A stretch of 35,722 bases of DNA from the NCBI GenBank assembly GCA_903925955.1, contig CAIYHO010000082.1:1-35722 (forward strand), written 5' to 3'. This stretch comes from an uncultured Chloroflexota bacterium. Lineage in GTDB: Bacteria; Chloroflexota; Limnocylindria; Limnocylindrales; CSP1-4. Positions 29,171 through 35,722 of the stretch are shown one piece after another (position 1 is the first letter of the stretch; every line of letters begins with the position of its first letter). The notes under the pieces were generated by a model, which was not told where the DNA came from, searched no databases, and saw only the letters and a program-made list of their open reading frames with translations. A program made the translations under genes and the position numbers.

Positions 29171-31354
29171 ATGGGTTCCCCTCTGGCCGCGGTCCGCCGC
29201 GCAATCGCCGTCCTGGCCGTTGTCTCGCTGATTGCCGGTGGCGCCGCGGCGCCCGTGCTCGCCACGCCGGACGCGACCGCCCCCATCGTCACCACGCCCG
29301 TGGTCTCGCCCTCGCTCATCGTGCGGGGCGTGAGCGGCGCGCCCACCGTCACCGCCACGGCCACAGACCCGTCAGGCATCGCCTCCGCGGAGATGAGCCT
29401 GGACGGCGGCGACTGGGGCCCGATGGCCGCCATGGACGGCACCTTCGGCGGCGTCAGCGAGGGCCTCACCGCGGGTCTCACCGCGGGCGTCGGCAAGCTG
29501 TCCTCCCTAAGCGTGGGCATGGTCCACAACTGCGGGCTCCTCGAGGATGGCAGGGTGACCTGCTGGGGCCAGAACTCCACTGGGGCGCTGGGTGGGGCCA
29601 GCCTCGCCTCCTCGAGCCCGAGCCCGGTGATCGCCGCCGGCATCAGCACCGCCACCGCGATCAGCGCCGGGTACCTGTACACGTGCGCCCTCCTTGCCGA
29701 CAGAACCATCCGCTGCTGGGGCAGCAACACCGACGGCCAACTCGGCGACGGCACCACCACCGGCACCCACACCTCGGGCGGCCCCTACGCAAACCCAGTC
29801 ACAGTCACCGGGATCACAACGGCCATCGCCGTGAGCGCGGGCTGGAACCACTCGTGTGCCATCCTCGCCGGCGGCACCGTCCGCTGCTGGGGCTGGAACC
29901 AGGCCGGAGAGCTTGGCAACGGCACCACCGCCGATAGCCTCACGCCGGTCGCCGTCACCGGGATCACCAACGCCGTTGCGCTGAGTTTGGGCCGGCAGTC
30001 CACGTGCGCCGTCCTCGCCGACGGGACCATCCGCTGCTGGGGTTTGAACACCTACGGTCAGCTCGGCGACGGCACAACCGTCAACCGCAGCGCATCGGTC
30101 GCCGTGACGGGCATCACCACCGCCGTGTCGGTGAGCGCTGACAACTACCACACCTGCGCGCTCCTCGGCGACGCCACCGTGCGCTGCTGGGGCGACAACT
30201 GGTACGGCCAGCTCGGCGACGGGACCACCTCGTTCGGCGTCGCGTCCCCGGTCACGTTCGGTGCCACGGGCGTTGTCGCGGTGAGCGTCGGTAACGCCTC
30301 CACCTGCGCCTTGCTCGCAGGCGGCGCCGTATGGTGCTCGGGCAAGAACTCACAGGGCGGGCTGGGCGACGGCACGAAGACAAACCGGGTCACCCCGGTC
30401 CCCGTGTCCGGCATCACCACCGCCACGGCGATTGGAGTCGGCCTGGCCCACGCGTGCGCCATGCTGGCCAGCGGCACGGTCACGTGCTGGGGCGCCAACT
30501 ACACGGCGCAACTTGGCGACGGCACCTGGGTCGACAGCACCGTTCCGGTGGCCTCTATCGCGCTCCCCACCGGCACACACGAGGTCTGCGTCCGGGCCAC
30601 CGACACGGCATCCAACACCAGCGCCGGCGGCGCCTGCGCGACGCTCGAGGTGGTTGCGGCCGGGTCCGACACCACGGCGCCCACGTTCAGCAAAGCCGCA
30701 ACCGTGGCGCTGCGCACGGCCGCCGCGCTCAGCACGGTCTCGACGTCGTCCGCAGTCCCGGTCACGGTCTCCTGGGCCGCAGCCGACAACGCGGGCGGCA
30801 GCGGGCTGGACCACTACACCATCGAGGCGCGGGCCAACAACGGCGCCTGGACAACGGTGGCTCTGGCCACCCCGCTCGCGGTCAGCGCCGCAACCACGAT
30901 GCCCTCCACCGGCACGGCCACGTTCCGGGTGACGGCGTACGACACCGCTGGCAACTCGCAGATCTCCCTGACGGGCGCACGATCGGCGGCGCTCACCCAG
31001 AACACCAGCAAGCTCGTCGTGTTCAGGGGCGCCTGGACGCTCTACAAGAAGTCCACGTTCTCGGGCGCCAGCGACAAGTACAGCAGGACCAAGAACGCCT
31101 ACGCCACGTACGTGTTCACCGGCCGGGCCATCGGGCTCGTCTCCATGAAGAGCAAGCTGTCCGGACAGGTGAAGGTCTACATCGACGGCAAGCTCAAGGC
31201 CACCGTCAGCCTCACGGCGTCCGCCACCACGTACCGGACGGTCGTGTGGCAGTACGCCTTCGCCACGTCGGGCAAGCACACGGTCAAGCTTCTGGTCGTG
31301 GCAACCAGGGGCAAGCCGCGCGTGGACCTCGATGCTTTCGTCGTCCTGAAGTAG
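29171..31354 (+). CDS. Secreted RCC1-repeat (seven-bladed propeller) protein with C-terminal Fn3/Ig-like and beta-sandwich-like domains
   Basis: ATG 29171 gives MGSPLAAVRRAIAVLAVVSLIAGGAAAPVLA signal peptide; seven copies of xxxSAGxxHTCALLADGTIRCWGxNxxGQLGDGTT; then GGSGLDHYTIEARANNGAW; C-terminal IGLVSMKSKLSGQVKVYIDGKLKATV. Confidence 0.88.
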   Translation: MGSPLAAVRRAIAVLAVVSLIAGGAAAPVLATPDATAPIVTTPVVSPSLIVRGVSGAPTVTATATDPSGIASAEMSLDGGDWGPMAAMDGTFGGVSEGLTAGLTAGVGKLSSLSVGMVHNCGLLEDGRVTCWGQNSTGALGGASLASSSPSPVIAAGISTATAISAGYLYTCALLADRTIRCWGSNTDGQLGDGTTTGTHTSGGPYANPVTVTGITTAIAVSAGWNHSCAILAGGTVRCWGWNQAGELGNGTTADSLTPVAVTGITNAVALSLGRQSTCAVLADGTIRCWGLNTYGQLGDGTTVNRSASVAVTGITTAVSVSADNYHTCALLGDATVRCWGDNWYGQLGDGTTSFGVASPVTFGATGVVAVSVGNASTCALLAGGAVWCSGKNSQGGLGDGTKTNRVTPVPVSGITTATAIGVGLAHACAMLASGTVTCWGANYTAQLGDGTWVDSTVPVASIALPTGTHEVCVRATDTASNTSAGGACATLEVVAAGSDTTAPTFSKAATVALRTAAALSTVSTSSAVPVTVSWAAADNAGGSGLDHYTIEARANNGAWTTVALATPLAVSAATTMPSTGTATFRVTAYDTAGNSQISLTGARSAALTQNTSKLVVFRGAWTLYKKSTFSGASDKYSRTKNAYATYVFTGRAIGLVSMKSKLSGQVKVYIDGKLKATVSLTASATTYRTVVWQYAFATSGKHTVKLLVVATRGKPRVDLDAFVVLK

Positions 31355-31495: not shown

Positions 31496-31571
31496 GCCCC
31501 CGTAGCTCAGCGGATAGAGCATCTGCCTTCTAAGCAGTTGGTCGCAGGTTCGATTCCTGCCGGGGGCGCCA
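31496..31571 (+). tRNA. tRNA-Arg (anticodon UCU)
   Basis: GCCCCCGTAGCTCAGCGGATAGAGCATCTGCCTTCTAAGCAGTTGGTCGCAGGTTCGATTCCTGCCGGGGGCGCCA; anticodon loop CTTCTAA; encoded CCA. Confidence 0.96.
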
Positions 31572-31586
31572 TTGCCGGGGGCGCCA
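31558..31586 (+). repeat. Tandem duplication of the tRNA-Arg 3' end (TGCCGGGGGCGCCA x2, 1-nt spacer)
   Basis: 31558-31571 and 31573-31586 are identical 14-mers. Confidence 0.95.
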
Positions 31587-31676
31587 CAGAGGTTGGCGCA
31601 GGATGTTCTGCCGTACGATGGGTCTACGGCGAACGTTGCTGCGGGCGGGAGCAACCCCCGATAGGGAGTGGGGTGC

Positions 31677-32063
31677 ATGGGCAAGCGCAGAACGACGGGA
31701 TTGGACGTCGCGCCCGGCGAAGACCGGCTTGCCCTAGAGCACGACTCGATTCTGATCATCAGCCTCGTGCGCGACGGCGCTGGGGCGTGCTTGGACGTCG
31801 TCATCGAGTTCGCCAACGATGCCTGGCGTGACGACTTCGGGATCAGCGAGCGGGACCTCGCCGGGCACAGCCTGTTTGCCACCGTGCCTGCCCTCAAGCA
31901 GCGTCTGCCGGTGGTCTACATGTCTGGCTATTCCGCCGAGGCGATATTTGACGGCGGCGTGCTTGAGCGCGATGTCGCGTACCTGGCCAAGCCGTTCACC
32001 GCAGACGCCCTGAAGCGGATGATCCGCGAGGTCCTTGATCAGGCCGGTACAAGCGCCGGCTAG
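31677..32063 (+). pseudogene. Short PAS/receiver chimera; probable internally deleted hybrid histidine kinase
   Basis: PAS-like N-terminus (HDSILIISLVRDGAGACLDVVIEFANDAWRDDFGISERDLAGHSLF) runs directly into the C-terminal half of a receiver domain (LPVVYMSGYSAEAIFDGGVLERDVAYLAKPFTADALKRMIREVLD). No kinase core and no phosphoacceptor Asp half. Confidence 0.7.
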
Positions 32064-33106
32064 CGGTCGGGGTGAAGGGCCTCCCGCACGATGGCCCCAA
32101 GCCGGTGCATGTCCGCCTCCTCGTACCGCTGGTCGCAGTGGATCGAGAGGATCCGGCGTGAGAGGTCCGCGTCGGGCCCGCCAGTCCCGCGCTTGGGCGA
32201 CGCGTCCAGCGGCCACAGCACAACGGGCGCCACGGCCCGCGCGGCAAGCGCGTGGAGTGCCTTGCGCTGCTCGTTGTGGGTGGCAAAGACCATGGTGAAC
32301 GCAAACCCAACGCCGCCCTGCGGCGCCTGCAACAGGCGCGCGGATGGCGGCAACTCAGCCTCGTGCTCAAGGATTGCAAGGTGTCGCCGCCGCCTCTCTC
32401 GCCAGGCCTGTGCGGGCATGCCCGGCAGCAGGGCGCGGGAGATCGGCAGGATGCCCTCGCCTGCGCCGCTCCCGCTTGGATGCCACCGGCTGCGAGCCAG
32501 GGCCCGGAACCGAAGCGGACCGGCCCCGTCGGTTGCGGACCTGCCCAGCTGGGCGGCCAACGCCTGGCCAAGGCGTCTGGTCGCTGATGGCGTGGAGTCC
32601 GCGGCGTCGGCCGGCTCCGGTGGCAGCTCCAGCCCTCGGGGCGACCACACGGCGCCGCCGTCGGGGAGCGGCAGCGTCTTGCGCAGCGAGGCAAACGCGT
32701 AGTCCGCGCCACTGCGCAGCGCCCATTCCGACCCGAGGTCGTGGGAGTGGTCCTCGATCAGGGTGACGCCGCCGGCGGTGATGGCGTCCATGGCGTCGGT
32801 GTCCGGCCTTGGCCGCACGCCCAGCTGGTTTGCCAGGACGACCACGTCGCCGCGGATCGCCGGGATCGCCCCAACCTGCGTTGGCGCCCAAAGCGCGTGA
32901 TCCGGGAACACGAGGAGTTCAACCACGTCCGCGATAGCCGCCAGCGCAGCCGGGACCTCCGGACAGTAGTAGCTGGGCACCCAGACCCTGCGCCAGCCGT
33001 GTCGAATGGCGCCCCACCGCACCAGCGCGACAAGGGCGTCACGTCCGGACGCAAAGAGCGAGGCATTGCGCAGATAGGGCAGGTTGGCTGACGGCACGTC
33101 GCACAT
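32060..33106 (-). CDS. DegT/DnrJ/EryC1/StrS-like PLP-dependent aminotransferase family protein
   Basis: FASGRDALVALVRW; VWVPSYYCPEVPAAL; GGVTLIEDHSHDLGS; DYAFASLRKTLPLPDGGAVWSP (putative PLP Lys). Confidence 0.75.
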   Translation of the reverse strand: MCDVPSANLPYLRNASLFASGRDALVALVRWGAIRHGWRRVWVPSYYCPEVPAALAAIADVVELLVFPDHALWAPTQVGAIPAIRGDVVVLANQLGVRPRPDTDAMDAITAGGVTLIEDHSHDLGSEWALRSGADYAFASLRKTLPLPDGGAVWSPRGLELPPEPADAADSTPSATRRLGQALAAQLGRSATDGAGPLRFRALARSRWHPSGSGAGEGILPISRALLPGMPAQAWRERRRRHLAILEHEAELPPSARLLQAPQGGVGFAFTMVFATHNEQRKALHALAARAVAPVVLWPLDASPKRGTGGPDADLSRRILSIHCDQRYEEADMHRLGAIVREALHPDR

Positions 33107-33814: not shown

Positions 33815-35463
33815 GCGAGCAGCCAGCCGCGGCACGGCCTGTCCGTCACCGCGCCGCCGTCGCCACCACCGCAGGCGAGACGCGAGCCTCCGCGTACGTG
33901 TGCGAAGCCGCGTCCTGCATGTCGGCGCAGGCCCACGACATCACGGTCAACCTTGCTGCGCAGTGCGCGGCCGCGGGCCTCACCGATGTCATGGTCAAGC
34001 GCGTCGGCTGTCTGGGCCTCTGCGCCGCAGGTCCGCTTGTGGAGATCCCCCAGACGGGCGAGCTCTTCGCGCAGGTCAAGCCTGGCGATCTTGGCGGCCT
34101 GATCACAGCCCTCAAGCACGTGAAGCCCGGCGCCACGCCCAAGCCCCAGGGCCCCTTCTTTGAGAAGCAGCTCCGCGTTGCCACGGAGAACATGGGCCGC
34201 GTGGACCCGGAGTCCCTTGAGGACTACGTCGGCCGCGGCGGTTACGAAGCGCTCCAGAGCGTGCTTGCGGATATGACCTCCACCGAGGTCCGCGAGGTGA
34301 TCAGCCAGAGCGGTCTCCGCGGTCGCGGCGGCGCCGGCTACCCCACGGCCCTCAAGTGGACCACCGTGGCCAAGGCCGAGGGCAAGCAGAAGTACGTCAT
34401 CTGCAACGCCGATGAAGGCGACCCGGGCGCGTTCATGGACCGCAGCGTCCTGGAGAGCGACCCGTTCAGGATCCTCGAGGGCATGGCGATCGCCGCGTTC
34501 GCCGTCCACGCCACCGAGGGCTACATCTACTGCCGCGCGGAGTACCCGCTTGCGGTTGCCCGCCTGCGCACGGCCATCCGCCTCGCACAGCGCGCCGGGT
34601 TCCTGGGCGCCAACATCGCCGACACCTCGTTCACCTTCGACGTCCAAGTCCGGCTTGGCGCGGGCGCCTTCGTCTGCGGCGAGGAGACGGCGCTGATCGC
34701 GTCGGTTGAGGGCAAGCGTGGCACGCCGCGTCCGCGTCCGCCGTATCCGGCCGTTGAAGGGCTGTACGGCTGCCCCACGCTGATCAACAACGTGGAGACG
34801 TTTGCCAACGTCCCGGCCATCCTGCGCAAGGGCGCGGACTGGTACGCGTCGATTGGCCTTGGGAAGAGCAGGGGGACCAAGGTCTTCGCGCTCGCCGGGC
34901 GTATCGTCAACACGGGCCTCGTGGAGGTGCCGATGGGCATGACCCTGCGCGAGATCATCTACGACATCGGCGGCGGGATCATCGACGGGCGACCCTTCAA
35001 GGCCGTCCAGACCGGCGGCCCGTCGGGCGGCTGCATCCCGGCCGACTACCTCGACAGCCCGGTCAGCTACGAGACCCTGATTGATCTTGGATCCTTCATG
35101 GGCTCGGGCGGCATGATCGTCATGGACGACACCGCCTGCATGGTGGACGTCGCCCGCTACTTCCAGGACTTCTGCCGCGACGAGTCGTGCGGCAAGTGCA
35201 CCCCCTGCCGCGTCGGCACCACCCAGATGTACAGGCTCCTCGACCAGATCACCCGCGGAGCGGCGACGATGGACGACCTGGCCACGCTCGAACGCCTGGC
35301 CGGCATCGTCCAGAAGACGGCGCTGTGCGGGCTCGGGCAGGGAGCGCCCAACCCGATCTTCAGCACGCTGCGCTACTTCCGGGACGAGTACATGGCCCAC
35401 ATCGTGGACAGGGTCTGCCCCGCCGGCGTCTGCACGATCACTCCGGTGGAGGTGATGGCATGA
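33811..35463 (+). CDS. hoxF: Hydrogenase diaphorase flavoprotein subunit HoxF / NuoF-like with N-terminal [2Fe-2S] thioredoxin-like domain
   Basis: GTG at 33811 overlapping the hoxE stop, after [17 protein letters not shown]...[80 protein letters not shown]. Confidence 0.85.
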
Positions 35464-35722
35464 CCACCGTCTACACCCTGCGGATCGACGGCAAGGATGT
35501 CGCCGGCTCGGAGGGTGCGACGATCCTGGAGGTGGCGAGGGAGAACGGGATCGACATCCCGACGCTCTGCCACCTCGAAGGCATCTCTCCTCGCGGTGCC
35601 TGCCGCCTCTGCATGGTCGAGATCGCGGGCTCACCGAGGCTCGCCGCGGCCTGCCTGACGAAGGTCATCGAAGGCATGGAGGTCACGGCGCACTCCGAGC
35701 TCCTGCTGGAGTACCGCCGCAC
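35460..35722 (+). CDS. hoxU: Hydrogenase diaphorase [2Fe-2S] subunit HoxU-like (5' part, truncated by the window edge)
   Basis: ATGA overlap with hox[88 protein letters not shown]. Confidence 0.82.

Follow-up and report, generated by a model that had tools for sequence, protein, structure and literature searches.

The short open reading frame and its flanks

The window analyzed here, a 35,722-nucleotide stretch of the genome of an uncultured Chloroflexota bacterium, carries on its plus strand a short open reading frame (31677-32063, 128 aa, with an in-frame GTG at 31668 as an alternative start) that joins pieces of two signaling domains and is read below as what a deletion has left of a hybrid histidine kinase gene. 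The first 78 codons (31677-31910, plus strand) correspond to the N-terminal part of a sensor kinase, covering the start of the first, weakly PAS-like region of the parent protein, and the last 50 residues, encoded at 31911-32063 on the same strand, represent the C-terminal half of a receiver domain (VVYMSGYS...LAKPF...) that ends at the natural stop codon of the parent. Pfam matches to the remnant are weak and partial, comprising positions 54-111 of the 111 in the Response_reg profile (E 0.023) and the N-terminal parts of PAS_9 and PAS_4 (E 0.065 and 0.1), with no Pfam match to a HisKA domain carrying the phosphorylatable histidine or to a HATPase_c domain. The receiver is incomplete, and the phosphoacceptor stretch LLLTDVMMPG of the parent falls inside the deleted part; the start region and its purine-rich leader are kept. 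The original prediction had described an open frame fusing PAS and receiver sequence from which HisKA, the HATPase and the phosphoacceptor half of the receiver were lost. Its coordinates and description are right: both halves match contigs of a sister genome, and the lost elements are all present in the sister's parent gene and all absent from the remnant. Two complete PAS domains of the parent, which that list of losses did not include, are missing as well.

Upstream of the remnant lies a tRNA-Arg (TCT) gene (31496-31571, plus strand), which is syntenic in the sister genome. Downstream, a convergent gene of 348 aa (32060-33106, minus strand) overlaps the remnant, the two stop codons sharing a CTAG at 32060-32063. 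The proposal that this shared CTAG marks a natural terminus holds, as the same arrangement is found in the sister, and the CTAG terminus is therefore an inherited gene end. The convergent gene had also been labeled a PLP gene, a label for which neither Pfam nor NCBIfam yielded a match; its homologues occur in 7 of 12 genomes of the genus, its own included.

The stretch between the tRNA-Arg (TCT) gene and the convergent gene (31571-32060 in the window; also L074, L075 and L076) varies by species and looks like a variable insertion site. In G008 the tRNA and the convergent gene are directly adjacent with nothing between them, and in G003 and G005 the intervening genes are unrelated. A kinase of the kind discussed here is thus absent from this position in these three other species of the genus, all of which carry the convergent gene close to the tRNA, and present only in the window's genome (G000) and the sister (G007), which makes it an accessory gene.

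The parent gene in a sister genome

The sister genome is that of uncultured Chloroflexi Umea1p4_bin-051 (G007), a member of the same genus, in which the parent gene lies at the same locus. In a scan of contigs from one genome per species, residues 1-79 of the remnant matched one contig of this genome at 95% and residues 77-127 matched another at 96%, the two halves of the parent sitting at the ends of contigs C605 and C583. On the first contig the frame passes through the PAS domains with no stop and is still open at the contig end, where it reads ...SGGIAHDFN, and the second begins with IAHDFNNLL and continues through the ATPase domain and the receiver to a stop codon. The two contigs have exactly 20 bp in common at their ends, where the conserved IAHDFNN H box is encoded, and when joined there they give an in-frame gene with a CDS of 2,334 bp encoding 777 aa, a full length that we infer from this overlap and from the coherent domain order of a gene split over two contigs. 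An overlap of 20 bp is the expected leftover of a de Bruijn assembler with k = 21 at a motif common to many kinases.

A profile search of the 777-aa parent placed PAS matches at residues 138-254 and 288-374, HisKA at 406-467, HATPase_c at 511-631 and Response_reg at 655-766, following an N-terminal region in whose first 130 residues no PAS domain reaches E ≤ 0.001. This is the standard order of hybrid histidine kinases with PAS, HisKA, HATPase_c and a C-terminal receiver; compared with these, the remnant is devoid of every catalytic part. Over its final 59 positions, the CckA model (NCBIfam NF046020) aligns weakly to the C-terminus of the remnant; with 17 of 1000 bits this match lies far under the cutoff, so we do not assign the name CckA to the parent. 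Judging by its MAG name, Umea1p4_bin-051 probably comes from a study of stratified lakes and ponds for which MEGAHIT assembly with default settings was reported (Scientific Data; PMC8121793).

The flanks of the two loci match on the left (an RCC1-like gene and the tRNA-Arg) and on the right (the convergent gene, nuoE and nuoF), and the kinase deletion is the sole large length difference in the stretches compared, other gaps being 38 bp or shorter. The full-length orthologue anticipated among relatives has thus been located at the syntenic position, joined from two contigs. With the same locus and flanks and a full-length gene 1,947 bp longer, the sister bears out the reading preferred in the original prediction, a recent in-frame deletion of a hybrid kinase core.

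Two further features of the alignment concern the regions beyond the kinase locus. The RCC1-repeat-like gene (29210-31210) is 95-100% identical to its sister counterpart, with the DNA on its left mostly at 79-91%, and its pS is 0.043 compared with 0.13-0.17 in the genes to its right, a pattern of divergence suggesting that the two lineages have recently recombined across this gene. Identity to the sister falls from about 95% to about 74-76% at 35153-35652, where the window closes with the end of nuoF and the DNA that follows it.

The probable deletion, its junction and its age

The CDS measures 387 bp in the window and 2,334 bp in the sister, a difference of 1,947 bp, or 649 codons, which is a multiple of three and corresponds to the absence of sister residues 79-727. 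The junction spans 31907-31911: the last base specific to the left parental sequence is 31907, the CCG at 31908-31910 is common to both parental breakpoints, and the first base specific to the right parental sequence is 31911. The left breakpoint reads CAGCGTCTGCCG followed by ATC, and the right breakpoint GCCGGGTCTCCCG followed by GTG. The original prediction had advised looking for an ancestral deletion repeat, and the parental breakpoints do carry a candidate, the 3-bp CCG microhomology lying within an imperfect direct repeat that matches at 10 of 13 positions (GTCTGCCG / GTCTCCCG). Among random junctions, exact microhomology of at least 3 bp arises in 7% and a 10/13 match in 0.15% (about 0.0015), the 13-base span having been picked after the junction was seen. 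Illegitimate recombination or slippage between short repeats is a plausible origin. By chance alone, one deletion in three would keep the frame, so nothing is proved by its being kept here.

Two other sources for this arrangement were considered and rejected. Displacement of the core can be set aside, since a search of the window's genome with both halves of the missing segment recovered only paralogues and the 35-bp edge. Nor does the receiver end derive from recombination with a paralogue, given that both parts of the remnant match the same sister locus at 95-96%, and the flanks of that locus match as well.

Remnant and sister differ by 13 synonymous and 7 nonsynonymous changes, giving a pN/pS of 0.18, with values of 0.18-0.19 in each half; in the same comparison nuoE stands at 0.05 and the convergent gene at 0.48. 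For a window lineage free of constraint ever since the split, about 20-22 nonsynonymous changes would be predicted against the 7 seen (P below 0.001), and 7 changes are compatible with freedom for a quarter or less of the window branch, as judged from small divergence counts and a crude age model. A pN/pS this low would be no less expected were the deletion an artefact. On the evidence of the sequences, divergence of this purifying-selection-like kind argues for a deletion that is recent compared with the species split, or else is not in the organism at all. Recency would also account for a frame that is still open and little altered.

Origin and meaning of the short form

The explanation we consider likely, drawn from one assembly of the species, is that a recent deletion by illegitimate recombination inactivated an accessory hybrid kinase, leaving a real allele that is either fixed or polymorphic. 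The starting state would have been the 777-aa kinase, with its weak N-terminal PAS-like region followed by PAS, PAS, HisKA, HATPase_c and REC, from which a single in-frame deletion of 1,947 bp would have taken out residues 79-727, putatively through illegitimate recombination or replication slippage between the two copies of the 10/13 repeat, with CCG at the join. Because HisKA, the ATPase and the phosphoacceptor region are gone, kinase and receiver chemistry would be lost: a product without the phosphorylated histidine, the ATPase domain and the receiver aspartate would neither autophosphorylate nor accept phosphate, and the outcome would be a loss-of-function allele. We infer, then, the existence of the deletion in the organism, the recombination that made it and the loss of function that followed. 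Like other internal-deletion gene remnants at short repeats, this one has a single clean junction, microhomology, intact flanks and a parent in a close relative; unlike them, it happens to stay in frame, and for that reason it looks like a fusion protein.

The main rival, which we regard as distinctly less probable but by no means negligible, holds that the kinase is intact in the organism and that the short form stems from a chimeric read, a mis-join or a minority strain allele picked by the assembler. The window's genome is a draft in 308 contigs, the sister assembly broke inside the same gene at an H box common to many kinases, which marks the gene as hard to assemble, and the low pN/pS is what an intact gene would show. 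However, graph collapse requires a shared exact k-mer and the parental breakpoints share just 3 exact bases, so the junction must be present in the reads. The 1.9-kb core is also absent from the rest of the assembly, in which contigs down to 1,936 bp are included, a weak argument in that such a piece could be filtered out. Of the assembly collapse raised as an alternative in the original prediction, the repeat-driven form is accordingly disfavoured, and the chimeric form persists as the rival described here.

It is improbable that the remnant is instead a functional small protein, in which the N-terminal PAS part and the half receiver act on other kinases as a decoy or regulator. The open frame, the preserved start region with its purine-rich leader and the constrained divergence from the sister would fit such a role, but the constraint is accounted for by a recent deletion, neither domain is complete, and AlphaFold2 gave the 128-aa chain a mean pLDDT of 45 and a pTM of 0.37, from a shallow alignment of three rows that leaves room for folding. 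Moreover, no fused match spanning both parts was found in a scan of contigs from 84,980 species, which uses short peptide patterns and reaches close relatives only, nor in 61 relatives, 400 genomes of the phylum or plasmids. A conserved PAS-REC fusion family was rejected on these searches, as none returned a short fused homologue, and the remnant is therefore not a protein family; homologues with the exact fused architecture, which the original prediction had set against a deletion, did not appear in the collections searched, and its suggestion of a small signaling decoy gains nothing from them or from the low model confidence. The single match across the junction region, in G032 over query residues 18-109, resembled a fused homologue but was dismissed, as it maps to the PAS-like N-terminal portion of a kinase ORF of 768 aa, ahead of the kinase core. 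A newborn signaling microprotein, in which one deletion yields a truncated product that is expressed and works on paralogous kinases as a decoy or as a small, dominant partner, is more improbable still.

The remnant is probably non-functional and not a new signaling protein. What lies at this locus is most likely something ordinary, the part of an accessory hybrid histidine kinase that a loss-of-function deletion left behind, and an odd-looking fusion protein is resolved as an ordinary deletion allele. In practice, when two half-domains are joined in one open frame, comparison with a sister genome is the best first check. A deletion that proves real and recent would offer a clean example of in-frame signaling-gene loss in uncultured Chloroflexota.
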